Shown: positions 38,358-52,591 of the stretch, in pieces | How the letters are laid out: each line of letters starts with the position of its first letter | Numbering within the stretch: position 1 is the stretch's first letter | From: Chitinophagaceae bacterium | GTDB taxonomy: Bacteria > Bacteroidota > Bacteroidia > Chitinophagales > Chitinophagaceae | Assembly: GCA_025934485.1 (NCBI GenBank) | Contig: JAICXX010000002.1 | Location: forward strand, 1-64,000 | DNA: 64,000 nt | Reading direction: 5' to 3' | Made by a program: the position numbers and the translations under genes | The notes under the pieces: generated by a model | What the model saw: only the letters and a program-made list of their open reading frames with translations | Databases searched by the model: none | Told to the model about the DNA's origin: nothing

Positions 38358-38405
38358 AAATAAAAGTATTGTAATGCTTTTATTTAAAATATATTTCTAT
38401 CTTTG
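38358..38405 (+). promoter_or_regulatory. RIC-operon promoter with near-perfect palindromic operator
   Basis: AAATAAAAGTATT (38358-38370) pairs with AATGCTTTTATTT (38373-38385) with one mismatch around GT. A TATCTTTG -7 box follows at 38398-38405, its first base 26.5 bases from the operator centre. The operator replaces the -33 region, a geometry typical of class II activators. The site at 47025-47050 has the same palindrome and the same spacing on the minus strand. Confidence 0.7.
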
Positions 38406-38426
38406 TGGAGACGCAAAAAAAAGGTT

Positions 38427-39386
38427 ATGTCTACAATACAAGAAAACACACTCGATGTTACGTTGCTGGAGCCCCGGCAGAAACATCCCACCATCTTTTC
38501 CCGCTTCGATGAGCTATCGGGAGGGGAAAGCCTGACGATCTTTAACGACCATGACCCCAAGCCCCTATATTACCAGTTGCTGGGAGAAAGAGGGGATGTG
38601 TTCAACTGGGAATACCTTGAAAAAGGTCCCGAATCATGGAGGGTTCGTATCACCAGGCGGGGAAGCGGAGCGCAGGGTGAAACCCTTGGGCAGATTGCGG
38701 CTAAAGATATCCGCAAAGCACAGGTGTTCAAGAAGTATGGCCTCGACTTCTGTTGCGGCGGGAAGAAGACGGTTGTCGAAGCCTGTGCCGAAAAAGGCAT
38801 CGATGTTACCAGGGTGGAGCAGGAGCTCCAGCAGGCCGGCAAGGGAGCGGATGCCCGTCCCCTGCCATACAATGAATGGGATCCGGGGTTTCTCGCGGAT
38901 TATATCGTGAATACCCATCACCGGTATATCAGGAAGAACCTGCCGGACCTTGTTGCTTACGCCTACAAGGTGGCTCAAGTGCATGGAACCAGCCATCCCG
39001 AACTGCCGGCGGTGTATGAATTGGTAGAGCATATCAATGCCGAGCTGAGTGCGCACCTGGAGATCGAAGAGAGGATATTGTTCCCTTATATCAAAGCCCT
39101 GGCGACTGGTGGATCTAAGGCAAATACGGAGGAATTACTGATTTTCGGCTCCGCCGGCAACCCGATAGGCCGGATGGAGATAGAGCATGAGACGGTTGGG
39201 CGGGACCTGGAAGCCATCAGGGAGCTAACGGCGAACTATGCCCTGCCGGAGGATGCCTGTGCCAGCTACAGCCTCCTGTTCCGCATGCTTGCGGAATTTG
39301 AAGAGGACCTTCATTTGCATGTACACCTGGAGAACAACATATTGTTCCCCAGAACATTGGAGCTGGAGGAGCAGCTGGGTTTTTGA
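38427..39386 (+). CDS. RIC/ScdA-type iron-sulfur cluster repair di-iron protein with N-terminal DUF2249
   Basis: 319 residues from the ATG at 38427. Domains in order: DUF2249 (about 15-80, TIFNDHDPKPLYYQLLGERG), ScdA_N with FKKYGLDFCCGGKKTV (about 105-120), then a hemerythrin-like di-iron domain with THHRYIRKNL, HLEIEERILFPYI, MEIEHETVG and HVHLENNILFP. The family repairs iron-sulfur clusters damaged by nitric oxide. First gene of a five-gene operon. Confidence 0.92.
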   Translation: MSTIQENTLDVTLLEPRQKHPTIFSRFDELSGGESLTIFNDHDPKPLYYQLLGERGDVFNWEYLEKGPESWRVRITRRGSGAQGETLGQIAAKDIRKAQVFKKYGLDFCCGGKKTVVEACAEKGIDVTRVEQELQQAGKGADARPLPYNEWDPGFLADYIVNTHHRYIRKNLPDLVAYAYKVAQVHGTSHPELPAVYELVEHINAELSAHLEIEERILFPYIKALATGGSKANTEELLIFGSAGNPIGRMEIEHETVGRDLEAIRELTANYALPEDACASYSLLFRMLAEFEEDLHLHVHLENNILFPRTLELEEQLGF

Positions 39387-39402
39387 ATTCACCCGGGCAG
39401 CG

Positions 39403-40257
39403 ATGCCCCGAAAAACGATTCGCATCATGATCACTGTTAACGCAAATACCAGGATTGCCGAAGTCCTTCGGGAACATCCGGCCGCGTTGGAAGCCATTAT
39501 CGGCATCTCGCCCGGGTTTGAGCGGCTTCGCAATCCTTTAAGAAAGCTCATGGCTGGAAGAACTTCCATTGCCATGGCCAGCAGGATGGGGGCATGTACC
39601 GTCGACGAGTTCCTGAACCGGCTGGGAGTACTGGGATTTGCGATAGACCGGGAAGCGGTGCAAACCGGGGAATCCGGCGCAATATCGACGATCGGACCTG
39701 CTATGCCGGCTTTCCTGCGGGAAATTGGTCCTGACCGGGTGACGGAGCTGGACGTCCGGCCCATCATGGCGGGTGGGAAGGATCCTTTGAGCCAAATCCT
39801 TGCAGCAATCCACATGCTCGGCCAGGGGACTGTCCTGAAGATCGTGAATAGCTTCGAGCCTACCCCGTTGATCCTATTGCTGGAAAAGAAGGGGTTTGTA
39901 TCGTGGACGGATCATGTACAGGACGATGTAATTCATACTTATTTCTACCGGCGTGCGGAAGCATCTCCGGTGACCCCAGCGCATCCCCCTGCATTGGATG
40001 ATTGGGACGGAGCCATGGAGCGTTTTGCAGGAAAACAGGTGACCCTCGATGTCAGGGATCTGGAAATGCCTTTGCCGATGCTGACGATCCTGGAGCTGCT
40101 GGATGACCTGCCAGCGGGCCATGCCTTATTCGTTCACCACAAGCGTATCCCCGTCTTTCTTTTGCCGGAGCTGAACGAAAGAGGGTTCGAATATTGTATC
40201 CGGGAGATCCGGGATAGTGAGGTAGATATTCTTGTCTTTAAAAAATCAACTACTTGA
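39403..40257 (+). CDS. DUF1858 plus double DUF2249 protein
   Basis: 284 residues from the ATG at 39403 (39427 is an alternative). An N-terminal DUF1858-like domain (ITVNANTRIAEVLREHPAALE) is followed by two DUF2249 domains, one from ELDVRPIMAGGKDP and one from LDVRDLEMPLPMLTILELL. DUF2249 occurs with NO and iron-sulfur genes; biochemical role unknown. It ends just before the membrane protein gene. Confidence 0.8.
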   Translation: MPRKTIRIMITVNANTRIAEVLREHPAALEAIIGISPGFERLRNPLRKLMAGRTSIAMASRMGACTVDEFLNRLGVLGFAIDREAVQTGESGAISTIGPAMPAFLREIGPDRVTELDVRPIMAGGKDPLSQILAAIHMLGQGTVLKIVNSFEPTPLILLLEKKGFVSWTDHVQDDVIHTYFYRRAEASPVTPAHPPALDDWDGAMERFAGKQVTLDVRDLEMPLPMLTILELLDDLPAGHALFVHHKRIPVFLLPELNERGFEYCIREIRDSEVDILVFKKSTT

Positions 40258-40262
40258 GTGGA

Positions 40263-41537
40263 ATGAGTCATACGGTGGGAAGCAATACCACTCATCGGGT
40301 GGTATTGCCTTTTTATTTCTATGCGGCTTTGGCTTTCCTGGCTGCGACCGTGCTGTTGCTTCAGTCCAGTTCAGCCTTTACAGGCCATTTTTTTCAGCCG
40401 GCGATCCTTGCCGTGACGCACACGATGGCGCTGGGCTGGGGAACCATGATCATCATGGGCGCCAGTCACCAGCTTTTGCCCGTACTCGCGGAAAACAGGT
40501 TGTTCAGCGTCGCACTGGCGTATGTTTCATTCGTATTGGCTGCAATCGGCATTCCGCTGCTGGTATACGCCTTCTATACTTTTCAATTGGGATGGCCGGC
40601 GAGATGGGGCGGGAGCGCGATCGTCCTCGCCATAATTTGTTTTGTTATCAATGTTTGGGGAACGCTGACGGGGGGCAACAGGGATAATGTGCACGCAGTC
40701 TATGCCGTGACTGCATCGGTGTGGCTATTGCTGGCTGCCTTTACCGGTCTGGCACTGGTATACAATTTTACTTCGCCCTTCCTGCCGCAAGGCTCCCTCG
40801 CCTATCTTCCCTTGCATGCGCATATCGGCATAGCAGGCTGGTTCCTCTTATTGGTGATCGGCGTCGGATCAAGGTTGATCCCTATGTTCCTGATCTCGAA
40901 GTACACCAACGAACGATTACTTTGGGTCATTTATTTCCTGATTAACGGCGGGCTGTTGACTTTCTTATTTTTGTTCTTCCTGCCCCCCGGTCTTTCTTTT
41001 GCCTGGATGCCTATTATGGTCGTAATCATCGCCCTGATCCTTTTCGGCTATTATTGTTACTGTTGTTACCGGGAGCGCATCCGCAGACAGGTGGACAGCC
41101 GGATGAAAATATCTCTGGCATCCGCCGGCATGCTATTGATACCTCCCGGTCTGCTGATCATAGTAGTCGCTGTTCTACCGGCCGGCCACGTGGATAGCCG
41201 GCTTTTGCTCGTTTATGGATTCGCTACCTTTTTTGGCTGGGTAACGGCCATTATCCTGGGGATGACGTTCAAGACCCTGCCATTCATCGTGTGGAATAAG
41301 CTCTACCATGCACAGACCAGCGCCGGAAGATCGCCGAACCCCGGAGAATTGGCGGACAACAACCTGTTCGGAGTCACCGTCGCCGCCTGGCTGGCCGGGT
41401 CACTGGTCTTTATCGCCGGGATCTGCTGCCGCAGGGTGCCTGTACTACGTGGCGGAGCCGCTCTGTTGGTGGCTGCTGCCATCTTGTATAATTGGAATGT
41501 ATGGAAGGTTTTGACCCATAAATCACCGGCGAAATGA
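40263..41537 (+). CDS. Heme-copper-oxidase-subunit-I-like (NnrS/NorB-like) 12-TM protein
   Basis: 424 residues with about twelve membrane helices and the paired histidines HTMALGWGTMIIMGASHQLLP and LHAHIGIAGWFLL, a pattern seen in single-subunit heme-copper-oxidase relatives found beside NO-stress genes. Electron-transfer or NO-handling function is likely but the exact class is uncertain. The stop overlaps the start of the next gene by four bases. Confidence 0.65.
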   Translation: MSHTVGSNTTHRVVLPFYFYAALAFLAATVLLLQSSSAFTGHFFQPAILAVTHTMALGWGTMIIMGASHQLLPVLAENRLFSVALAYVSFVLAAIGIPLLVYAFYTFQLGWPARWGGSAIVLAIICFVINVWGTLTGGNRDNVHAVYAVTASVWLLLAAFTGLALVYNFTSPFLPQGSLAYLPLHAHIGIAGWFLLLVIGVGSRLIPMFLISKYTNERLLWVIYFLINGGLLTFLFLFFLPPGLSFAWMPIMVVIIALILFGYYCYCCYRERIRRQVDSRMKISLASAGMLLIPPGLLIIVVAVLPAGHVDSRLLLVYGFATFFGWVTAIILGMTFKTLPFIVWNKLYHAQTSAGRSPNPGELADNNLFGVTVAAWLAGSLVFIAGICCRRVPVLRGGAALLVAAAILYNWNVWKVLTHKSPAK

Positions 41538-41857
41538 ATGTAGTCACCAATAACGACTTGCAGTGCACGATCGCACTGGCTGCCCTGGAAAACGTCCTGG
41601 ACCCAGAGATCGGCCTGAATGTAGTCGACCTTGGATTGATCTATCGGCTCGATTTTGATGAGTCGGGCTCGGGCATAGCCGTGACCATGACCCTCTCTAC
41701 GCCCTTTTGTCCAATGGGTGAATCCATCACGGGCTCGGTGGAGCAGGTGCTGAAAGAGACATTTGCCGGGCCTTCTGTGACCATCGAACTTACCTTTCAG
41801 CCGCCCTGGAGCTATGATCGGATCTCCGAGGCGGGGAAAATTTTTTTAAGTAGATAA
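41534..41857 (+). CDS. MIP18/DUF59-type iron-sulfur assembly factor
   Basis: 107 residues with the DUF59 motifs LENVLDPEIGLNVVDLGLIYRL and MTLSTPFCPMGESI, including the conserved Cys. It acts in cluster insertion. Start codon overlaps the membrane protein stop, so it is translationally coupled. Confidence 0.88.
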   Translation: MNVVTNNDLQCTIALAALENVLDPEIGLNVVDLGLIYRLDFDESGSGIAVTMTLSTPFCPMGESITGSVEQVLKETFAGPSVTIELTFQPPWSYDRISEAGKIFLSR

Positions 41858-41860
41858 ACT

Positions 41861-42292
41861 ATGCTGAGTCTTACCTGCAAAACGGCCATCAAAGCGGTTA
41901 TCTTTCTAGCAACCCGAACGGATCCCGCCGAACGGCCGGGTATTAAAGAGATTGCAGCGGGTATCCGCGCCAACGAGCACACCGTGGGCAAACTGCTGCA
42001 AACGCTGGTGAAGCAAAAGGTGATCAACAGCGCCAAGGGGCCGTCCGGCGGGTTCTATATCTCCGGCGAACAGCAGAAGCAGCCGGTCATGGCCATCATT
42101 GAAGCCATCGACGGAGATGCCCTGTTCACGGAATGCGGCCTGGGGCTGAGCAAATGTTCAGCGGCGCATCCCTGTCCCATTCACGATGATTTTAAAGAAA
42201 GCAGGATGCTCCTGGAGAAGCTTTTCAGGACCCGGCGGATCATCGATCTATGCGGCACGGTAAGCAGCGGGGCCGCTTATCTCACGGGGTAA
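41861..42292 (+). CDS. Rrf2-family regulator with iron-sulfur cysteines (NsrR/IscR-like)
   Basis: 143 residues: winged helix (IKEIAAGIRANEHTVGKLLQTLVKQKVI, GPSGGFYI) and a cysteine cluster C-x6-C-x5-C (ECGLGLSKCSAAHPCPI) that fits a cluster ligand set. Last gene of the RIC operon, so it may regulate the island in response to NO or iron-sulfur status. Confidence 0.9.
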   Translation: MLSLTCKTAIKAVIFLATRTDPAERPGIKEIAAGIRANEHTVGKLLQTLVKQKVINSAKGPSGGFYISGEQQKQPVMAIIEAIDGDALFTECGLGLSKCSAAHPCPIHDDFKESRMLLEKLFRTRRIIDLCGTVSSGAAYLTG

Positions 42293-42344
42293 TCCGACGG
42301 CATACAATGCCAAGCCGGTGCCCCGGATATAGACGGCGATTGTT

Positions 42345-44024
42345 TCACGAATCGGCCAACAGGTCATAGTATTCGTCATCCTCATTTTTCCCGCCGAACC
42401 CTTCGCCTATCTTTTTACTGCTATCCAGGAACTCGATGGACCGGATCCATTTGACCATTTTATAACCGAGCTGGTTCTCCACCCGGAGCCGCAGCGGTGC
42501 GCCATGCTCAACGGGTAGCGGTGAATAGTTCATTTCCCAGGCAAGGATGCAACCAGGTTTGAGGCAATTGTCCAGCGTGTGGGTATCATAGTAGGCGCCT
42601 CCATACAGCCCCTCGCCAAAGGAAAAGAATGCCACCACCGTGGCGCCGGGCTTCGGCCGGACTATTTCGACGATCCGCCGCATTGGGATCCCGCCCCATT
42701 CGGCAATGCCGGTCCATCCCTGGATGCAATGATGCATGGTGATCTGTTGCTGCATTCCCATGGCCTGAAGATCGGCAAGGGATAGCTGTACCGGGTGCTC
42801 CACCATCCCGCCGACGGACAGCCGGTAATCCCGGAAGGATTGATCTGCCAGCAGCCGCCATTCCTCCGATTGCGGCATCTTACCGTTCATCCAGAAGTAA
42901 GACGAAATATCCTTTTGCCGGTAATATAGCTTTGGTTTTAGTCGATTAATGGTCAGCCGCCATAGGGTTCCGTTGATCGCCACCTCTATCCGCTGCAGGA
43001 CCCGGGGCCGTCGCCAGGACAGCCAATGCGCGAAAACGGCAAAGAGCACCACTGCCAGCACGATGGCGCTACCGATGACGATACCTCTCCAGTCCGACAG
43101 GCTGTCTGTACCCAGGATGATATGATTCATATTCCGCATTGCGCCGGTCAGGACCACGAGCGCGACGTGGATCACCAGGAAGACCAGGAACGCGAGTAGT
43201 ACCAGGAAATGCACCGAGCGGGCCGCCTGCCGGTTGCCGAAGAGTTTAGGCAGCCAATGCATCCGGTTCTCGACCGCCGGTGACATGGCCATCCCCGAGA
43301 CGAGGGCCACCGGTGCGAGCAGAAAGACAACTGTGAAATAGGATAATTGCTGCAGGGCATTGTAGCGAAAAAAACCATTTGGTTCGGCCGGCCAGTGAAA
43401 TGTGGCATAATGAACAAACACGCTCCATGCATCGGGAAGGACCGACCAGGAGGTGGGCACCAGCCGCCGCCAATGATCCGTTGCCAGCAGTAAGACGATA
43501 AATATGACCCCGTTCAAAATAAAGAAAGGGACGGTGATAAAATGCCAGCATCGTGCAATCCCTACCGAGTGCCGGAACCCCGGCAGACCCAGCACCGGGC
43601 TGATATACCGGGCGTCATCCTTGGCCGTATATACCCGGTCCCGCGGCACCTTATGGGGCGTGAACCGGATCCATTCCGAATCAGGACTGCAGCCGTTGTT
43701 CCAATATAGGCGCGGATGGTCGGCGAGGATCGATAACCCACTCCGCATGATCAACGAAAGGAAAAAGAAATTGACCCAGTGAGAAAGCCGGACCCAGCCG
43801 GGAAAGCCATGCGGTAATTCCTTTGTAGCCGTCGCCAGTACCGGGCCAACGGGTCCCGGATTAGCCGGAAGTCCACCGATCGCCAGTTGCAGCCACGCGG
43901 CACCCACCGTAGCTGCGACGAGCCCGGCGAATGTCCACCAGACATATGGTTTGAGCCCGATGAAGACGCGCCTCTCAGCCGGATACTTTACGGCCTGCTC
44001 TGCCGGTGAAAACTGCGTAAACAT
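42345..44024 (-). CDS. Fusion of cytochrome b membrane domain and Moco (sulfite-oxidase-like) domain
   Basis: 559 residues. Residues about 25-345 hold membrane helices with many histidines (RLSHWVNFFF, RCWHFITVPFF, VHFLVLLAFLVFLVIHV) like cytochrome b561/YedZ; residues about 385-545 form an oxidoreductase molybdopterin-binding domain with MHHCIQGWTGIAEWGG (Moco Cys) and APLRLRVENQLGYKMVKWI. MsrPQ-like systems have these as two proteins. It probably reduces an oxidised substrate with quinol. It lies 57 bases after the NDH-2 gene on the same strand. Confidence 0.85.
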   Translation of the reverse strand: MFTQFSPAEQAVKYPAERRVFIGLKPYVWWTFAGLVAATVGAAWLQLAIGGLPANPGPVGPVLATATKELPHGFPGWVRLSHWVNFFFLSLIMRSGLSILADHPRLYWNNGCSPDSEWIRFTPHKVPRDRVYTAKDDARYISPVLGLPGFRHSVGIARCWHFITVPFFILNGVIFIVLLLATDHWRRLVPTSWSVLPDAWSVFVHYATFHWPAEPNGFFRYNALQQLSYFTVVFLLAPVALVSGMAMSPAVENRMHWLPKLFGNRQAARSVHFLVLLAFLVFLVIHVALVVLTGAMRNMNHIILGTDSLSDWRGIVIGSAIVLAVVLFAVFAHWLSWRRPRVLQRIEVAINGTLWRLTINRLKPKLYYRQKDISSYFWMNGKMPQSEEWRLLADQSFRDYRLSVGGMVEHPVQLSLADLQAMGMQQQITMHHCIQGWTGIAEWGGIPMRRIVEIVRPKPGATVVAFFSFGEGLYGGAYYDTHTLDNCLKPGCILAWEMNYSPLPVEHGAPLRLRVENQLGYKMVKWIRSIEFLDSSKKIGEGFGGKNEDDEYYDLLADS

Positions 44025-44081
44025 AAAAAATTATCCGAGTAGTAAAGTTAAGGCAGTTTTCGATGCGAATGACCGGCATTT

Positions 44082-45443
44082 TTATCGCTTCAAGGTTAGT
44101 GTTAGGCCATCCGCCTCCTGATGATTTTGATTTTCATTACGGGGCTTCGCCATTCCACTTCCACCGTAGCGTCTCTCGGTCGGTTTAATAATTAAGCGCA
44201 GCGAGGAGTCATAGGTGAAATATTGCCATACCCAATTTATCAAGACGATAAGCCTGTTCCTGAATCCGATAAGTGAGATCAGGTGGACAAACATCCATGC
44301 AAACCAGGCAATAAAGCCCTTCAATTTTACAATTCCGATCTCCGCGACTGCCCTATGACGGCCTACTGTGGCCATCGACCCTTTATTTTTATAGCGGAAG
44401 GGGACCTGGTCATGACCGGATACGACGCGCCCCAAGTTCGTTGCCAGGAGATTTGCCTGTTGAATGGCGACCTGTGCAACCTGGGGATGTCCTTTGGGAT
44501 AATCAGGAAGCTGCATGATTGCAACATCGCCGATAGCAAAGACATCCTTCATCCCAATCACCTCGTTGAAAACATCGACACGAATTCTTTTATTGAGCTG
44601 TAGAGCTTCCGAGGGTAGACCTTTTATTTCCGCGCCTATTACGCCCGCGGTCCATATGACGCATCTGCTGCCGATAACGCTGCCATCGCTTAGAAGCACC
44701 CTGGCACCGTCAAATCGTTTGAGAATTGTATCCGTCCGGACTTCTACACCTAATTTGGCCAGGTACTCTTTTACGGTTGCCCCGGATTTTTTGTCCATAC
44801 CATTTAACAAGCCACTTGCCGCTTCGATAAGAAAGATGCGCATTTTGCAGAAATTCACTTCGGTATAGTCCTTTGGCAGAATATGCGCTTTCATTTCCGC
44901 TATAGCTCCAGCCAGTTCTACGCCGGTAGGACCGCCTCCAACGATCACCACGTTAAGTAGCGCCTCTCTTGTTCCTTCGTCTTCCGCGATAATCGCTTTC
45001 TCATAGTTCTGAAGCAATGTATTTCTCAGTAACAGCGCCTCGGATACGGATTTCATCGAATACGCATTTTCCTGCAGCTGTCGATTATCGAAATAGTTGG
45101 TGATGGATCCCTGCGCGAGTACCAGGTAATCATACGAGATATCTCCGATGGAGGTATCTATAGTTTTGGATGGCTCGTGTACGGATAATACCTCGGCCAC
45201 CCGGATATAAACATTTTCCTGTTTTCGGAATATTTTTCGCAGGGGAAAACTGATGCTGCCTGGATCCAGTCCGCCGGTAACCAGCTGGTACAGCAGCGGC
45301 TGAGACTGGTGATAGTTGTTCTTGTCCAGGAAGATTACCTGAAATCGTGTCGGGGTTAATTTTCTGGCGAGGGATAATCCTGCGAAACCTGCGCCTATGA
45401 TAACGACCCGCTTCTGATCTGGTTTGAGATCCGGCCAGTCCAT
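44082..45443 (-). CDS. Type II NADH:quinone oxidoreductase
   Basis: 453 residues: FAD-binding VVIIGAGFAGLSLARKL, NADH-binding VVIVGGGPTGVELAGAIAEM, DVFAIGDVA, and a C-terminal hydrophobic anchor (WFAWMFVHLISLIGFRN, VLINWVWQYF). It feeds NADH electrons to quinone without proton pumping, a route that tolerates NO better than complex I. Starts 6 bases after the hemerythrin fusion stop. Confidence 0.92.
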   Translation of the reverse strand: MDWPDLKPDQKRVVIIGAGFAGLSLARKLTPTRFQVIFLDKNNYHQSQPLLYQLVTGGLDPGSISFPLRKIFRKQENVYIRVAEVLSVHEPSKTIDTSIGDISYDYLVLAQGSITNYFDNRQLQENAYSMKSVSEALLLRNTLLQNYEKAIIAEDEGTREALLNVVIVGGGPTGVELAGAIAEMKAHILPKDYTEVNFCKMRIFLIEAASGLLNGMDKKSGATVKEYLAKLGVEVRTDTILKRFDGARVLLSDGSVIGSRCVIWTAGVIGAEIKGLPSEALQLNKRIRVDVFNEVIGMKDVFAIGDVAIMQLPDYPKGHPQVAQVAIQQANLLATNLGRVVSGHDQVPFRYKNKGSMATVGRHRAVAEIGIVKLKGFIAWFAWMFVHLISLIGFRNRLIVLINWVWQYFTYDSSLRLIIKPTERRYGGSGMAKPRNENQNHQEADGLTLTLKR

Positions 45444-45449
45444 AAAACA

Positions 45450-46256
45450 TTATTTAAGGGTCCAAAAATGATCATTCCAGTTGTTGTCCACATCCAGCTG
45501 CTTTTCCGAGCCAATTCGTTCTAAAGCTGATAATTGGGCCCCGGTTAGAACTTTTTGCAGATGGTTAAACAGCGTTCTTTCTTCAAATCGGATATGCCGG
45601 TCGAGCGTATCGGCAAAAGCCGCCAGCAAATCTTTGTTTGAGCTATCCCTGGTGATCAGCTCAACGAGCTCATAGATCTTTCTGTGATCGCCCAATGCCT
45701 TGGCCCGGACAAAGTCCCCTTCGGGTAGTTGAGAGAATAAGTCCGCTTCTTCCTTCCTGAAATGAGGTGCCAAATCCTGTTGAAAGAGATAAAGCAGATA
45801 ACTGCTTATCCGTTCTCCGGATATAGCTGATTCCAGGCCTCGTCTTATTTTCCAGGCCAGTAATAACCCGAAGTGGTGATCTCGGGAGAATGCAACAAGC
45901 GCGGGATGTCGTTTGATGGGCAGTTTTTTGTCTTCGGTTTTACGGGTCAGCTTCTCAACAAGCCTGGAACCGGTGTCTTCGGCATAAATCCCATAGGCGT
46001 TCACAACAAAGCCCTTTATCCCAAATTTATCGGAAGAAATTGCGAATAAGATCATCTCGTCATCAGGGTCGGTCTGGCCCTCAAATCTGAGTATATCGTC
46101 GATTTGAAACTCTTCCGGAGAAAGTGTCGCGGAGGTGCTGCTGCATATAAGGCAGTTGTCTCCAGGAAGGATAGAAAAGTCCTGGGTATAACCTCTAGCC
46201 CTGAGCTGGTCGAGCGCATCAACAAGTGTATCGCAGTCCGTTAATAGATTTTCCAT
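45450..46256 (-). CDS. PRPP-synthetase-like N-domain fused to a hemerythrin-like domain
   Basis: 268 residues. Residues 1-105 match small Bacteroidota proteins often labelled phosphoribosylpyrophosphate synthetase (ALDQLRARGYTQDFSI, LSPEEFQIDDILRFEGQTDPDDE, MILFAISSDKFGIKGFVVNAYG) though they lack that enzyme's motifs. Residues about 120-235 form a hemerythrin-like helical bundle (FSRDHHFGLLLAW, HFRKEEADLFSQL, HIRFEERTLFNHL). An oxygen/NO/iron-sensing role is inferred. Second gene of the minus-strand operon. Confidence 0.8.
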   Translation of the reverse strand: MENLLTDCDTLVDALDQLRARGYTQDFSILPGDNCLICSSTSATLSPEEFQIDDILRFEGQTDPDDEMILFAISSDKFGIKGFVVNAYGIYAEDTGSRLVEKLTRKTEDKKLPIKRHPALVAFSRDHHFGLLLAWKIRRGLESAISGERISSYLLYLFQQDLAPHFRKEEADLFSQLPEGDFVRAKALGDHRKIYELVELITRDSSNKDLLAAFADTLDRHIRFEERTLFNHLQKVLTGAQLSALERIGSEKQLDVDNNWNDHFWTLK

Positions 46257-46277
46257 GATAAATATTTTGTTTGTTAA

Positions 46278-46970
46278 CTAATTATTGTGGTCTTTCTCGA
46301 GTTGTAGTTTCTTTGGAAAAAGAATGTCATTCTCAAGATGAATGTGAATATGAAGGTCATTCTCAAATTCCGCCAGCATTTTGTAGAACACGGAGTATGT
46401 GGCACAGGCATCTTTTGGCAGCGCGTAATCGTTGCATAAGTGCACTATCTCATGGATCAATCCTGCCATCGACTCGTGCTCCATTTCCATAACATTTACC
46501 GGCTGGTGCATGGTCTGGAAACACCTCTGGCGCGGGCCGCCCTTACCGGCCTTTACGAGCTCCTTTATGTAGGGGAATAATATACCTTCTTCCTTTGCCA
46601 TATGCTCTGTCAATTCCGAGCTAAACTCATCTGCCAGGCGCTTTATTATCCTTAGTTCCGGATGATCTTCGCCATGGACCCGATTTAGCTTCCAGGCATA
46701 AGCCATGATGGCCGTGAGGTTTCTCCTTATGTACGCATGATGGATATTAAAGATGTAATCTGCCAAAACATCCGCGCGCCAGTCGTTATATGGTTCAATA
46801 GCATACTTCTTGAAAATCTCCGTCTTCCTGAGCTCTTTGGTGGCGATTTGATCAATTATCGTCAGGTTCTCCCCTTCCGTCAAATAGTCAAATCCGGCGT
46901 AGATGGAAGGATGCTTTCGAGTTAGCCCGAACTCCGTGACGTTGACCGTATTTTCCGTTGCCGTTTGCAT
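46278..46970 (-). CDS. Short RIC paralogue lacking the DUF2249 and CCGG segments
   Basis: 230 residues, clearly related to the 38427 protein (EFGLTRKHPSIYAGFD; KELRKTEIFKKYAIEPYNDW; FNIHHAYIRRNL; HMAKEEGILFPYI; MEMEHESMAG; HIHLENDILFP). Compared with it, about 60 residues of DUF2249 and about 40 residues including DFCCGG are absent, leaving the di-iron domain. It is therefore a hemerythrin-like paralogue without the ScdA_N cysteines. First gene of the minus-strand operon. Confidence 0.85.
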   Translation of the reverse strand: MQTATENTVNVTEFGLTRKHPSIYAGFDYLTEGENLTIIDQIATKELRKTEIFKKYAIEPYNDWRADVLADYIFNIHHAYIRRNLTAIMAYAWKLNRVHGEDHPELRIIKRLADEFSSELTEHMAKEEGILFPYIKELVKAGKGGPRQRCFQTMHQPVNVMEMEHESMAGLIHEIVHLCNDYALPKDACATYSVFYKMLAEFENDLHIHIHLENDILFPKKLQLEKDHNN

Positions 46971-47003
46971 ATCCCTTGTAGTCCTGGTGTGGAGTTGTTA
47001 GCA

Positions 47004-47063
47004 CAAAGATAGGGAAGAATTTGTAATAAAAGTATTAGAATACTTTTATTTTTTGTAAGTTTG
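47004..47063. promoter_or_regulatory. Divergent promoter with perfect 12-base-arm operator
   Basis: AATAAAAGTATT (47025-47036) pairs perfectly with AATACTTTTATT (47039-47050) around AG. On the minus strand a TATCTTTG -7 box (47011-47004) starts 26.5 bases from the centre, identical to the 38.4 kb promoter. On the plus strand TAAGTTTG (47056-47063) is a -7 candidate for the transketolase gene at 18.5 bases. Confidence 0.75.
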
Positions 47064-47123: not shown

Positions 47124-49010
47124 ATGCAAGGCGTATTGAATTCGGGATACGAGGTTGCTGCATCCCTAAGAGAAAAAGCAGCCCTGATACGTAAATGGTG
47201 CCTGATCTCGACTACCGAGGTCGGATCGGGGCACCCTACCTCTTGTCTATCAGCGGCAGACCTGACAACCGTTCTCTTCGGCAAGTATTTCAGCTACGAT
47301 ATAGAGCATCCGCTAAATCTCTATAATGATCGCTTCGTTTTATCGAAAGGACATGCGGCGCCCCTGCTATATGCTTTGTTCGGCGTAGCGGGCGCTTACC
47401 CGTTGAACGAACTTAAGACATTGCGGAAATTCGGCAGCCGGTTTCAGGGTCACCCGGTACCCAGGTTTGAGTTTAGCGAGGCCGCCACGGGCTCTCTGGG
47501 CCAGGGACTATCGGTGGGAGCGGGGCTGGCGCTGGTGGCCAAAAGGGAAAAGTTGCCCTCGAAAACCTATGTGCTCTTGGGCGATGGAGAGTTGGCGGAG
47601 GGACAAATTTGGGAAGCGGCCAACTTTGCCGCCTATCATCAATTAGATAACCTCATTGCCATTGCGGATATCAACCGCCTGGCGCAAAGCGGAGAAACGA
47701 TGTTCGGTCATCATTTGGATAAGTATGCAGATCGCTTCCGTGCATTCGGTTTTGAGGTCATTACGATCGATGGTCACCGTCTTGAAGAATGCGATCACGC
47801 ATTGGAACAGGCTGTATACAATAAAAGTGGAAGACCGGTCGCCATTATCATGAAAACCATAAAGGGAAAAGGTATTTCTTTTTTGGAAGACAAGGAAGGT
47901 TGGCATGGGAAAGCCTTGAATCGGGAACAATTACAACTTGCATTGGCTGAGTTGGGCGAAACAGATGACCGCGTCCGGTTCACACTAAAAAGACGCCAGG
48001 GCTTCGCAGTGACAAAGGAAGTACACCCCGCCGTCAATATCGACAGGGCATTCCAAAAGGGAAACGAATACGGGCTCCGGGAGGTTTTCGGGCAGGCGCT
48101 CGCCGGGTTGGGAAAACAACAGCCGAACGTATACGCGCTGGATGCCGACGTCAAGAACTCGACATTCACGCAAGACTTTGCATTTCAAATCCCCGAGCGG
48201 TTCGTAGAGTGTTATATAGCAGAGCAAAACATGGTATCCGCAGCCGTAGGCTTATCCCGGTTGGGCAAAATACCTTTTGTCTGTACATTCGCCGCTTTTT
48301 TTACCCGGGCTGCTGACCAGATCCGGATGGCAAGAGTATCCGGGGGAAATATTAAATTTGTGGGCAGCCACGTCGGTGTTTCTATCGGCGAAGACGGTCC
48401 TTCCCAAATGGCCCTGGAAGATATTGCATTGTTTGGCGCAGTGCCTGACTGCGTTATTTTTCAGCCCGCGGACGCAGTTGCAACAGTTCAGTTAATGTCT
48501 TTAATGATTCAGCATCAGGGGTTTGCATATATGCGTATACTTCGCCCAAAGACAAAGGTGTTGTATGCCAATGATGAGAGATTTCATATTGGTGGGTCGA
48601 AGGTATTGCGACATTCCGATGGCGATTTGCTCACGATCGCCGCTACCGGGATCACCGTATTTGAAGCCTTGTCCGCCGCAGATCAATTGAGGGACCAGGG
48701 TATATTCGTCCGGGTGGTGGATTGTTATTCCATTAGCCCCATCGATAAGAAGACACTGGCAGCCTGTCTCCAGAAGACTCGAAATCCGTTCCTGATCACC
48801 GTTGAGGATCATTTTGTGCATGGGGGAATGGGGGATTTCGCCGCTGCGGCCCTTTCTGATATGGGAATGCCTATTCGCATAGAGAAAATGGCGGTATCGA
48901 AGATCTCGCAATCGGGAAAGATGGAACAGCTATTGGATGATGCCCGCATCAGTGCCGCGCATTTGGTGGCCAGAGTGAAAGACCTATTATCAAGGAACGG
49001 CAAAGAATAG
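47124..49010 (+). CDS. Transketolase
   Basis: About 628 residues from the ATG at 47124; the frame to 47061 would start inside the promoter. Thiamine-diphosphate motif GDGELAEGQIWEAANFA and IAIADINRL, pyrimidine-domain AEQNMVSAAVGL and EDGPSQMALEDIALFG, and a C-terminal transketolase domain. It joins sugar phosphates in the pentose-phosphate pathway. Single-chain form; a second transketolase elsewhere in the genome is expected. Divergent from the short RIC gene. Confidence 0.92.
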   Translation: MQGVLNSGYEVAASLREKAALIRKWCLISTTEVGSGHPTSCLSAADLTTVLFGKYFSYDIEHPLNLYNDRFVLSKGHAAPLLYALFGVAGAYPLNELKTLRKFGSRFQGHPVPRFEFSEAATGSLGQGLSVGAGLALVAKREKLPSKTYVLLGDGELAEGQIWEAANFAAYHQLDNLIAIADINRLAQSGETMFGHHLDKYADRFRAFGFEVITIDGHRLEECDHALEQAVYNKSGRPVAIIMKTIKGKGISFLEDKEGWHGKALNREQLQLALAELGETDDRVRFTLKRRQGFAVTKEVHPAVNIDRAFQKGNEYGLREVFGQALAGLGKQQPNVYALDADVKNSTFTQDFAFQIPERFVECYIAEQNMVSAAVGLSRLGKIPFVCTFAAFFTRAADQIRMARVSGGNIKFVGSHVGVSIGEDGPSQMALEDIALFGAVPDCVIFQPADAVATVQLMSLMIQHQGFAYMRILRPKTKVLYANDERFHIGGSKVLRHSDGDLLTIAATGITVFEALSAADQLRDQGIFVRVVDCYSISPIDKKTLAACLQKTRNPFLITVEDHFVHGGMGDFAAAALSDMGMPIRIEKMAVSKISQSGKMEQLLDDARISAAHLVARVKDLLSRNGKE

Positions 49011-49051
49011 TGGGAATGTAATTGCCGAATAAAAACCAGGAGGGTAATCAT

Positions 49052-49396
49052 ATGGAACTAAACATTAAAAGGGTCTACGAGAAGCCGGCCAAAGAGGACG
49101 GAACGCGTATTCTTGTGGACCGCCTATGGCCGCGGGGTCTTACGAAGGAGAAGGCCCACATTGATTTGTGGTTAAAGGAGATTGCTCCGAGTACGGAACT
49201 CAGGAAATGGTTTGGGCATAACCCTGCCAGGTGGGACGAATTTAAAAAGAGATACCGGGTGGAGTTAAAAACGAATAAGGAGCAGGTTTCGTTGCTGAAG
49301 GAAGAGCAACAAAAAGGAGTTGTCACATTGGTTTATGGCGCCAAAGACGAGGAACACAATGAGGCCCTTGTTCTCAAAGAATGGCTTGACCATTGA
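49052..49396 (+). CDS. DUF488 family protein
   Basis: 114 residues from the ATG at 49052, preceded by AGGAGGG 9 bases upstream, an unusually strong ribosome site for this phylum. Signature [35 protein letters not shown] split across the start and [19 protein letters not shown] near the end. Function unknown; 41 bases after transketolase. Confidence 0.88.
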
Positions 49397-49437
49397 GTTT
49401 TGCTGCTAACAACCACGATTGCTTAAAAATATAATTT

Positions 49438-52215
49438 ATGTCGAAAGATCCTTACCAGGTCAAAAGGCTGCTAACCACAAAAAACGGCACTTTCACCTAC
49501 TTCAGCCTCGAAGAGCTTGCCAATAAGGGACATGATATTGCTAAATTGCCTTTTTCCATCCGGATTCTGCTGGAGAATGCACTGCGAAATTTTGATGATT
49601 TCGCTATAACCCATGACAATATAGAAACCATTCTCCAATGGAAACCCGCCGGCTCGGATAAGGATATCCCATTTAAACCTGCCCGGGTATTAATGCAGGA
49701 TTTTACCGGTGTTCCGGCTGTCGTGGATATTGCGTCACTCCGGGCGGAAATAGCAAGGAAGGGGAAAAATCCTGATCGGATAAGTCCGTTAATACCGGTT
49801 GATCTCATAATCGATCACTCTGTACAGGTGGATTATTTTGGAACGGAGTATTCTTATGTTCGCAACATGGACGAAGAGTATAAGCGCAACCGGGAGCGCT
49901 ACAAGTTTTTAAAATGGGCTCAACATTCACTTAATAATTTTAGCGTGGTTCCCCCGGGTATGGGCATTTGTCACCAGGTGAACCTGGAATATTTATCTAA
50001 GGGTGTAATTGAGAGAAATGGAGAAATATTTCCTGATACATTGGTGGGGACAGATAGCCATACACCCATGGTAAATGGGATAGGCGTTGTAGCCTGGGGT
50101 GTCGGGGGTATTGAAGCAGAAGCTGCTTTGCTTGGTCAACCCATCTATTTTATAATGCCTGAAGTTATCGGCTTGAAACTTACAGGCAAATTGCCCTTGG
50201 GTTCCACTGCCACAGATTTGGTATTGACGATTGCCGAGCTCTTACGGAAATATGGGGTCGTTGGAAAATTTGTAGAAGTGTTTGGTTCGGGTCTTGATCA
50301 TCTTACTGTTCCGGACCGTGCTACTATCGGGAATATGTCCCCGGAATTTGGGTGCACGATTACCTATTTCCCGTTCGATGACAAGACCCTGGAATATATG
50401 CGCAGGAGCAACCGGTTCGAAGAACAGGTAAGACTATTGGAAGATTACTGCAAGGCCAATATGTTGTGGAGGACCGGGAATGAAAATATTAATTATACCG
50501 ATATTGTCGAATTGGACCTCTCGTCGATAGAGCCTACGGTCGCCGGCCCCAAACGGCCGCAGGATAAAATCTTATTAAAGGAGTTTAAGGCAAAATTTAT
50601 CGGGCTGTTAGATCAAACGTTTGGGCGTAAATACAAAGAAGTAAAACAATTAGGTAATTGGATGGCGGAAGGAGGTAGTCAACCTAACAAGCAAGCTGCA
50701 TCTGAACCTGCACCACCGGCGGAAATAGAAGAAACTGTCGTGAACGGGATGAAGAATGTTTGGGTAACTTCCGAAAAAGAAAGTTTTATGCTTTCTGATG
50801 GTGCGGTTGCTATTGCCGCCATTACTTCCTGTACCAATACCTCCAATCCGTTTGTTATGCTCGGGGCAGGACTGGTAGCCAGAAAAGCGAGAGAACGCGG
50901 ATTGAAAGTGAAGCCATGGGTTAAGACCTCTCTTGCCCCAGGCTCAAAAGTGGTAACGGATTATCTTGAAAAAGCCGGCCTGTTGGGTGACCTGGAGGCT
51001 ATGCAATTTTATACCGTTGGGTATGGGTGCACTTCCTGTATCGGCAATTCCGGGCCGTTACCCCTGCAAGTTGCGAAAGCGATAGACGAGTACGATTTGG
51101 TGGTGGCCTCGGTACTTTCAGGCAACCGGAATTTTGAAGCCAGGATACATCCGCAGGTAAAAATGAATTTCTTGATGTCGCCGATGCTGGTGGTGGCTTA
51201 TGCTATTGCCGGCAGGGTTGACATAGACCTCATCAATGAGCCGATAAGTTTCGATCCTAATCAGCAACCTGTTTTTCTGAAAGATATCTGGCCGGAGGAT
51301 GATGAGATTAACGAAATAATGAGGCAGGTGCTTTCACCTAAAGATTTTGCAAAGAATTATGGGGAGATATTTGAAGGTAATGAAATATGGAGAAACCTTA
51401 TCATTCCTGAAGATAAGTTGTATGTGTGGGATAAGAGTTCAACCTATATTAAAGAGGCCCCGTTTTTCCATGACATCTCTGTAAACGCCGGATCATTGAA
51501 GGACATCTTTAACGCAAGAGCTCTATTAGTATTGGGCGACAGTATCACCACGGATCATATTTCCCCGGCGGGGCAGTTTAATCAATTTTCATCTGCAGGG
51601 GAGTATTTAATCAGCAAAGGTGTGAAAAAAGAGAACTTCAACTCGTACGGCTCAAGACGGGGGAATGACGAAGTAATGGTACGAGGCACTTTTGCCAATG
51701 TACGTATCAAAAATAAGCTGGTACAAAAAGAAGGAGGCTATACAAGATATTTACCCACGGGCGAGGAAATGTCCGTCTATGACGCTTCAATAAAGTACAA
51801 GCAGGCCCAAATGCCTTTGATCATATTGGCGGGAAAGGAATATGGTAGCGGTTCATCAAGAGATTGGGCCGCAAAAGGTACATTCCTGTTGGGTGTTAAA
51901 GCAATACTCGCAGAAAGTTATGAACGCATACACCGGAGTAATTTGGTGGGGATGGGTGTCTTACCCCTTCAATATGTGAATGGTGATAGCGCTGAAAAAT
52001 TAGGGCTATCCGGAAAAGAAATATTTTCCATCGCAGGTATTGCCCGCGACATGAAGCCCTTAAAGCAAGTGCAGATCGTTGCTAAAGACGAGACGGGCGG
52101 AGAGATCAAATTCAAGGTGATTGCCCGGTTAGATTCAAAAATCGAAATCGAGTATTATCGACATGGGGGGATATTACAATATGTATTGAGGCAATTCCTG
52201 GAGAAAGGCAATTAA
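49438..52215 (+). CDS. acnA: Aconitate hydratase, AcnA/IRP type
   Basis: 925 residues, full length. Cluster cysteines are in ITSCTNTSNP and GYGCTSCIGNSGP; active-site segments include DLVLTIAELLRKYGVVGKF, GTDSHTPMVNG, and swivel-domain LVLGDSITTDHISPAGQ and KEYGSGSSRDWAAKG. It interconverts citrate and isocitrate. AcnA-type enzymes are more oxidant-resistant than AcnB, which fits an NO-stress island. Probably cotranscribed with DUF488. Confidence 0.93.
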   Translation: MSKDPYQVKRLLTTKNGTFTYFSLEELANKGHDIAKLPFSIRILLENALRNFDDFAITHDNIETILQWKPAGSDKDIPFKPARVLMQDFTGVPAVVDIASLRAEIARKGKNPDRISPLIPVDLIIDHSVQVDYFGTEYSYVRNMDEEYKRNRERYKFLKWAQHSLNNFSVVPPGMGICHQVNLEYLSKGVIERNGEIFPDTLVGTDSHTPMVNGIGVVAWGVGGIEAEAALLGQPIYFIMPEVIGLKLTGKLPLGSTATDLVLTIAELLRKYGVVGKFVEVFGSGLDHLTVPDRATIGNMSPEFGCTITYFPFDDKTLEYMRRSNRFEEQVRLLEDYCKANMLWRTGNENINYTDIVELDLSSIEPTVAGPKRPQDKILLKEFKAKFIGLLDQTFGRKYKEVKQLGNWMAEGGSQPNKQAASEPAPPAEIEETVVNGMKNVWVTSEKESFMLSDGAVAIAAITSCTNTSNPFVMLGAGLVARKARERGLKVKPWVKTSLAPGSKVVTDYLEKAGLLGDLEAMQFYTVGYGCTSCIGNSGPLPLQVAKAIDEYDLVVASVLSGNRNFEARIHPQVKMNFLMSPMLVVAYAIAGRVDIDLINEPISFDPNQQPVFLKDIWPEDDEINEIMRQVLSPKDFAKNYGEIFEGNEIWRNLIIPEDKLYVWDKSSTYIKEAPFFHDISVNAGSLKDIFNARALLVLGDSITTDHISPAGQFNQFSSAGEYLISKGVKKENFNSYGSRRGNDEVMVRGTFANVRIKNKLVQKEGGYTRYLPTGEEMSVYDASIKYKQAQMPLIILAGKEYGSGSSRDWAAKGTFLLGVKAILAESYERIHRSNLVGMGVLPLQYVNGDSAEKLGLSGKEIFSIAGIARDMKPLKQVQIVAKDETGGEIKFKVIARLDSKIEIEYYRHGGILQYVLRQFLEKGN

Positions 52216-52246
52216 TGATTTCATAAATAATTATAAACTATCAGTC

Positions 52247-52591
52247 ATGAACAGTAGTCAACTTTACCCGCAAGCCACCAGGGAAATCTCTGAAAAAAGG
52301 GCATCGCTTGCTCCTGAAATTACGGAAGCATTCAGAAATTTCAGCAAGGCCGTGTTCAAGGACGGGGCATTGCCGGAAAAAACGAAACAGCTTATTGCAG
52401 TAGCGGTTGCACATGTTACGCAATGCCCATACTGCATACACGGACATGTTGCGCAGGCTATGCGAAAAGGAGCAAGCCAACAAGAGATTATGGAAGCTAT
52501 TTGGGTCGCGGCTGAAATGCGCGCCGGGGGCGCTTATGCGCATGCAGCATTGGCCATTGATGAGATGGAATCGAAGGAAAAATCGATGTAG
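52247..52591 (+). CDS. Carboxymuconolactone-decarboxylase / AhpD-like protein
   Basis: 114 residues with the AhpD core HVTQCPYCIHGHVAQAMRKG (CxxC plus His), a thiol peroxidase or disulfide-reductase type active site. It lies 31 bases after the aconitase gene, closing the stress island on the right. Confidence 0.88.
   Translation: MNSSQLYPQATREISEKRASLAPEITEAFRNFSKAVFKDGALPEKTKQLIAVAVAHVTQCPYCIHGHVAQAMRKGASQQEIMEAIWVAAEMRAGGAYAHAALAIDEMESKEKSM

Follow-up and report, generated by a model that had tools for sequence, protein, structure and literature searches.

The stretch analyzed here (the window) comprises 64,000 nucleotides, positions 1 to 64,000 of contig JAICXX010000002.1 from a Chitinophagaceae bacterium (assembly GCA_025934485.1). 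It contains an island of two convergent operons, each preceded by a long palindrome, S1 or S2 (Table 1). S1 heads the rightward operon, which encodes the iron-sulfur (Fe-S) cluster repair protein RIC1, a DUF1858/DUF2249 protein, an NnrS-like protein, a MIP18/SufT-like protein, and an Rrf2 regulator, the regulator gene thus being itself a member of the operon. S2 heads the leftward operon, encoding RIC2, a hemerythrin-domain protein, an NDH-2-like protein, and a molybdopterin oxidoreductase. We consider it probable that the two palindromes are operators of the island's own Rrf2 protein, which would act by repression relieved by Fe-S damage.

Both palindromes are 26 bp long. S1 (AATAAAAGTATT-GT-AATGCTTTTATT) is one mismatch short of perfect symmetry, and S2 (AATAAAAGTATT-AG-AATACTTTTATT) is a perfect palindrome. 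Each is followed by the sequence TATCTTTG, which fits the TAnnTTTG -7 box of Bacteroidota sigma-A promoters and starts 26.5 bases from the palindrome centre in both cases; no TTG -33 element was seen by reading either promoter. The preliminary description of this DNA had reported just such an arrangement, with the same palindrome standing in place of the -33 motif in two opposing promoters, and it is borne out. The same description had placed the operator near -41, the class II activator position, and here we differ. In Flavobacterium psychrophilum, TAnnTTTG occupies positions -12 to -5 (PMC9723704). Should this position, borrowed from another Bacteroidota species, apply to our promoters too, the operator centre would be near -38.5, and class II geometry (-41.5) was rejected on this ground.

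A search of the whole assembly (6.75 Mb in 381 contigs, 93.4% complete) with the full pattern, allowing three mismatches, returned S1 and S2 alone, and the reversed-pattern control returned nothing. Random scatter of the palindrome through the genome, which would have argued against its relation to stress genes, is thus not what we see. Within the window, the half-site AATACTTTTATT has 16 matches with up to two mismatches, against a shuffle mean of 6.55. The expected association of the genomic sites with nitric oxide (NO), hcp, norB, or ric genes holds for ric; no hcp or norB target turned up among the own-genome sites.

Among 195 relatives searched, the full pattern with up to three mismatches has matches in 29 genomes. 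Since the centre is variable in these relatives, the functional motif is a pair of 10-bp arms around a free 6-bp centre, AATAAAAGTA-N6-TACTTTTATT, and the 12-N2-12 palindrome was rejected. RIC adjoins the site in 23 of 30 loci, two of them the window's own; the sites of the other seven differ from the refined motif at one to three positions. A search of the window's genome with this motif adds one site with three mismatches (contig C4), which was taken as a chance match, no island-type gene being present in the 3.5 kb fetched.

With up to two mismatches, 105 of 394 genomes match, but the reversed control also matches in many, so that we relied on exact or near-exact matches and on their position. 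When named genomes were scanned for exact matches, at least 117 stretches came up; the counts that follow refer to the matches listed. RIC lies within 250 bp in 90 of 105 Bacteroidota stretches versus none of 12 stretches from other phyla. The remaining Bacteroidota stretches include one with the Rrf2 gene itself, one with a DUF2249 operon, and 13 others, of which three precede a small cupin gene, five are less than 300 bp from the end of the slice, and five are unexplained. Thirty of the 62 RIC stretches found among 80 listed belong to Chitinophagaceae, and the rest either have no order named or come from orders that include Saprospirales, Sphingobacteriales, Cytophagales, Flavobacteriales, and Bacteroidales. 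One could still suppose that the palindromes arose by chance in AT-rich DNA or are structural features, as the reversed controls match in many relatives at two mismatches and the 12 exact matches in other phyla, all without RIC, look like chance. We regard this as extremely improbable given two own-genome sites against none for the control and the position of 90 of the 105 exact Bacteroidota stretches beside RIC.

Several sites have other neighbours. Four loci (L058, L133, L166, and L236) combine an exact operator of the S1/S2 kind (A-type, see below) with a small cupin-like gene downstream of it, which may be a further regulon member; of the three scanned (L058, L133, and L166), only L166 exceeds the Cupin_2 Pfam cut-off. 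In two Flavobacteriaceae (L143 and L150), an exact operator is located upstream of a ribosomal protein L3-like gene, with no RIC nearby. In genome G049, the operator-like site lies between RIC and a divergent nosZ-type cluster, nosZ being a reading by eye.

The distance between operator and box was analyzed in 104 distinct operator-RIC promoters, whose operators have no mismatch in 84 cases, one in 15, and two in five. TAnnTTTG is present within 50 bp in 89 promoters and missing in 15. The box offset is 26 in 51 of the 89, 25 in 11, 24 in 10, 27 in seven, 23 in two, 13-18 in seven, and 34 in one. The spacer sequence is not conserved in this set, and with its letters free and the offset kept, the distance itself is constrained. 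With the RIC operator conserved and its distance from the box restricted in this way, the earlier proposal that both operons are coregulated finds good support.

To identify the binding protein, we considered genomic linkage, co-occurrence, and autoregulation. We chose 40 neighbourhoods from the matches with up to two mismatches, 29 of which have RIC next to the site. In 23 of these 29 RIC operons, some of which consist of RIC and Rrf2 alone, the Rrf2 gene lies downstream in the same orientation; among the six without it, four are cut by contig ends and two (L067 and L072) are uncut. The clade of close Rrf2 proteins (at least 160 bits, the next best having 130) is present in 27 of the 195 relatives, and an operator with up to two mismatches, a threshold at which the reversed control often matches too, occurs in 25 of these 27 versus 15 of the 168 others. 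In one of the two misses (G141), an operator with three mismatches and a -7 box head an operon in which two additional genes come ahead of RIC; in the other (G163), the operon is located near the end of a contig, and no RIC is visible there. Conversely, none of the 29 genomes having RIC without this Rrf2 carries an operator with up to two mismatches in the fetched slice. For instance, G052 keeps the RIC-DUF2249-NnrS-MIP18 genes, lacks both Rrf2 and the operator, and has TGATTTGAATCA before RIC. Finally, an exact operator with a box at 26 precedes a lone gene of the island-type regulator, Rrf2-A, by 58 bp (L199). The computed site, spacing, and conservation are thus joined by linkage, co-loss, autoregulatory sites, and variation of the operator with the Rrf2 clade, and the last four argue that the likely binder of S1 and S2 is the Rrf2 protein of the island, already named as a candidate in the preliminary description, rather than a Crp/Fnr protein.

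A Crp/Fnr-type sensor of NO or oxygen, binding S1 and S2 and activating both operons, was the first candidate of the preliminary description, and we find it highly unlikely. The half-sites AGTA-N6-TACT have a spacing that we take to be that of Crp/Fnr sites, and HTH_Crp_2 proteins are encoded in all 15 genomes examined, with 12 matches in the window's genome. Moreover, the FNR-like regulator HcpR is reported to regulate dnrN in B. fragilis (PMC1274295). However, Crp/Fnr genes are rarely found near the sites: in 3 of 40 neighbourhoods by a hidden Markov model built from 28 proteins, in 6 of 40 by BLAST, some of them perhaps through a response-regulator domain, and in 3 of the 90 RIC slices among the exact matches. 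This rare linkage led us to reject the family as the binder. The position of the operator centre also speaks against it, as do TGA-N6-TCA sites, which are separate from the operator and precede it in 22 of 104 promoters (mean of 3.3 and at most 8 in shuffles), and the TGATTTGAATCA found before RIC in G052, where operator and Rrf2 are absent.

Sixteen of the 104 promoters, for instance those of L273, L277, and L065, have another motif, TGTCA-N7-GTAA, at 0-11 bp before the operator (mean of 0.1 and at most 1 in shuffles), always in the same orientation (0 of 104 for the reverse). Because this motif and the Crp/Fnr-like sites occur in part of the promoters, separate activators seem to exist there; neither motif was seen before S1 or S2. 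Proteins of about 352 amino acids with a response-regulator-like start and a Crp-type helix-turn-helix at the end were noticed in many relatives, with examples in the window's genome (G000:C87), L095, L101, L104, and others.

The island regulator belongs to the Rrf2 superfamily by Pfam PF02082 (62.9 bits, cut-off 30) and scores 58.8 bits with TIGR00738, under the cut-off of 73.3. Its AlphaFold2 (AF2) model, with a mean predicted local distance difference test score (pLDDT) of 85.9, has a winged helix fold, and its best Foldseek matches are RsrR, NsrR, CymR, and IscR. A single-sequence search of PDB with the window protein gave nothing at E 0.01; a profile search gave 14 Rrf2-type chains. The cysteines C92, C99, and C105 are present in all 67 labelled and all 16 aligned proteins, the latter also conserving H108, and Rrf2-A likely carries an Fe-S cluster. 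Because the targets are RIC and an NnrS-like protein, we infer that NO may be the signal.

The operator is part of a broader set of Rrf2 sites. A common pattern, AATAAAAGA-N8-TCTTTTATT, with up to two mismatches has eight sites in the window's genome and none for the control. Two of the eight are S1 and S2, each of the genome's four remaining Rrf2 genes is preceded by one, and the last two precede a transaldolase gene (53 bp) and a DUF488 gene (106 bp). F or Y at residue 41 is also found in 70 further Rrf2 proteins, of which 28 have a variant operator, AATAAAAG-N10-CTTTTATT, with up to two mismatches within 170 bp before the start; these 28 paralogues are 30-49% identical to the window protein. 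In all 28 variant (B-type) operators, A replaces T next to AATAAAAG in both arms, and in their promoters 19 of 24 boxes are at 24-27.

On the Rrf2 tree, operator type changes once, against at least eight changes in 200 shuffles (L217 was counted as A-type, having an exact A-type site farther upstream besides a nearer one with two mismatches). In all 56 A-type cases, where base pair 5 from the centre is T, the protein has T (55) or S (one) at residue 41, whereas with A at base pair 5 this residue is F in 11 of 11 B-type sites and F or Y in 28 of 28 paralogue sites. In the AF2 model, residue 41 lies near the start of helix 39-51. For the ScNsrR and EcIscR complexes, helix-3 contacts at +4 to +6 and -8 and wing contacts at ±10 are described, the central 7 bp being free of base contacts (PMC9338935); in our alignment, anchored on the wing Lys/Arg-Gly, residue 41 corresponds to ScNsrR His42, which contacts +4. 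A tentative and decidedly speculative generalization is that Bacteroidota Rrf2 paralogues share the outer half-site AATAAAAG and are discriminated by the inner two base pairs near residue 41, each holding the -33 slot at a fixed distance in place of that element and so forming several parallel, insulated Fe-S damage regulons. If true, such regulons would coexist in one genome, here with five Rrf2 proteins for eight sites, and would include switching to a spare aconitase and spare pentose-phosphate enzymes.

In the mechanism that we propose, Rrf2-A would bind S1 and S2 as a dimer, the two half-sites of 10 bp flanking a 6-bp centre whose sequence is neutral. The protein would cover about -51 to -26, where the -33 element would otherwise lie, and would control its own operon, the convergent RIC2 operon via S2, and possibly, through the other face of S2, a transketolase-DUF488-aconitase operon. 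Physical binding, repression, and release when NO or another stress damages the cluster on C92, C99, and C105 (and H108) are inferred. Repression is preferred because the operators at offsets 13-18 (7 of 104) overlie the spacer and because operators overlap the presumed -7 box in part of the box-less promoters. In 10 of the 15 box-less promoters, the Crp/Fnr-like TGA-N6-TCA occurs no more than 45 bp ahead of the operator, and in nine of these ten it lies 29.5-30.5 bases before TACTTTTA, a possible -7 box inside the operator; the nine come from a Flavisolibacter-containing genus group, Paracnuella, and Paraflavisolibacter. If TACTTTTA is the -7 box, the distance is that of class II activation, and bound Rrf2 would block polymerase.

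The same Rrf2 might instead mainly activate from S1 and S2, replacing the -33 element, with a second sign perhaps coming with the state of the cluster; this reading is near to the class II proposal of the preliminary description. Such activation would account for the lack of TTG at -33 in both promoters and for a box starting at 23-27 in 81 of 89 boxed RIC promoters and at a similar offset before the paralogue genes (19 of 24), though spacer letters are not conserved. It agrees poorly with a centre near -38.5 rather than -41.5 and is hard to imagine for operators 13-18 from the box or over the presumed -7 box, so that we think it rather unlikely.

Against repression by the island Rrf2 we have to set several points. 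The fixed spacing (51 of 104 at 26) exceeds the need of a plain repressor and would also suit an activator, and the missing -33 element is a further argument of this kind. Operator conservation in the 104 promoters is partly due to their selection at up to two mismatches. Rrf2-A was seen in 40 of the 90 RIC slices among the exact matches listed, many of the slices being short or cut. Genome G064 has a site with three mismatches and no close Rrf2; in G049 (83% complete), a site with two mismatches lies near RIC (L393:3945-3970), with no Rrf2 in the slice. Among the 70 paralogues, 42 have no recognizable operator in the 170 bp before the start, and as operator type changed once on the tree, its pairing with residue 41 is one event. 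Rrf2-DNA binding and effects on expression are themselves sequence-based predictions.

S2 may be bidirectional, with the regulon including a spare Fe-S enzyme. On its other face, the candidate -7 box TAAGTTTG has a spacing that falls in the minor class, and contig C182 carries a parallel gene set (L404, 20500-31500): transaldolase, further genes, aconitase, and a carboxymuconolactone decarboxylase (CMD) family gene, followed by Rrf2, with B-type operators before transaldolase and before Rrf2. These two features suggest the bidirectional role. We note that the C182 set and positions 47124-52591 of the window both pair a pentose-phosphate enzyme with aconitase and CMD, each with an Rrf2-type operator. 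A BLAST search of the fetched relatives for transketolase beside the operator found none except a 21% match in L092.

Table 1. Genes and regulatory features of the island and of the adjacent operon (positions in the window)
Feature	Position	Strand	Basis
Operator S1, A-type Rrf2 operator, AATAAAAGTA-N6-TGCTTTTATT	38359..38384	+	Whole-genome pattern search; conserved before RIC genes of relatives
TATCTTTG -7 box, RIC1 operon	38398..38405	+	26.5 from S1 centre; spacing conserved in relatives
RIC1, iron-sulfur cluster repair di-iron protein: DUF2249, ScdA_N (DUF542), hemerythrin	38427..39386	+	Pfam; TIGR03652 over cut-off
DUF1858 and DUF2249 protein	39427..40257	+	Pfam
NnrS-like membrane protein	40254..41537	+	Weak COX1 Pfam match under cut-off; name NnrS is our own reading; conserved in operon
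MIP18/SufT-like FeS_assembly_P protein	41534..41857	+	Pfam, NCBIfam
Rrf2-A regulator, proposed to bind S1 and S2; C92, C99, C105, H108 conserved	41861..42292	+	Pfam, relatives, AF2 model
Cytochrome b561 and molybdopterin oxidoreductase domain protein, last gene of presumed RIC2 operon	42345..44024	-	Pfam
NDH-2-like NADH dehydrogenase	44082..45443	-	Pfam
Hemerythrin-domain protein	45450..46256	-	Pfam
RIC2, RIC-like hemerythrin protein	46278..46970	-	TIGR03652 below cut-off; no ScdA_N domain found
TATCTTTG -7 box, RIC2 operon	47004..47011	-	26.5 from S2 centre
Operator S2, perfect A-type, proposed bidirectional	47025..47050	.	Whole-genome pattern search
TAAGTTTG, candidate -7 box of transketolase operon	47056..47063	+	18.5 from S2 centre; minor spacing class 13-18 in 7/104 RIC promoters
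Transketolase, possible S2 target	47124..49010	+	Pfam, NCBIfam
DUF488 protein, possible S2 target	49052..49396	+	Faces S2
Aconitase, iron-sulfur enzyme, possible S2 target	49438..52215	+	Faces S2
CMD family protein, possible S2 target	52247..52591	+	Faces S2

In titles and the beginnings of abstracts of the papers listed by our searches, we found no description of this operator or of an Rrf2 regulator of RIC in Bacteroidota. The window protein is an Rrf2 protein by Pfam, outside the NCBIfam NsrR and IscR families. If our interpretation is right, the cell would switch on Fe-S repair genes after damage such as that by NO. For RIC across several Bacteroidota orders, it offers a regulator and an operator open to testing, together with a small regulon. 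It also offers naturally occurring paralogues, in which a single residue and two base pairs may serve to dissect how Rrf2 proteins recognize DNA, and points to an Rrf2 protein seated where the -33 promoter element should be.

Among known systems, IscR, which regulates Fe-S homeostasis, shares with the island regulator the Rrf2 fold, and the island operon contains a MIP18/SufT-like gene. The arrangement C-x6-C-x5-C-x2-H of the window protein resembles the IscR ligand set. It differs from IscR in its score with the NCBIfam IscR model (36.6 bits, under the cut-off of 207.55), in the operator letters, and in that no isc or suf operon is among the own-genome sites looked at. HcpR and HcpR2, the Crp/Fnr NO sensors of Bacteroides and Porphyromonas, are similar in controlling nitrosative stress genes, including the B. 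fragilis dnrN mentioned above (PMC1274295), but they belong to another family, and the HcpR2 motif given there, GTAACnnnnGTTAC, is unlike S1 and S2. A further parallel is NsrR, the NO-sensing Rrf2-family repressor of proteobacteria and Streptomyces, among whose reported targets are ric/dnrN and nnrS (PMC1274295, PMC9268430). Both have the Rrf2 fold (AF2 model versus the NsrR-hmpA1 complex 7b0c, query TM-score (TMq) 0.74), three cysteines (92/99/105 in the window protein, 93/99/105 in ScNsrR), and a long palindrome with a neutral centre (for NsrR, PMC9338935). However, the window protein has no match to the NCBIfam NsrR model at E 0.001, and the homologue in L199 scores 23.3 bits against a cut-off of 182. 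The ScNsrR cluster is reported to be held by Cys93, Cys99, Cys105, and Asp8, whereas the island protein has K7/T8 in place of this aspartate and a conserved H108. Finally, its operator differs from that of NsrR, and the regulator gene sits inside the RIC operon.

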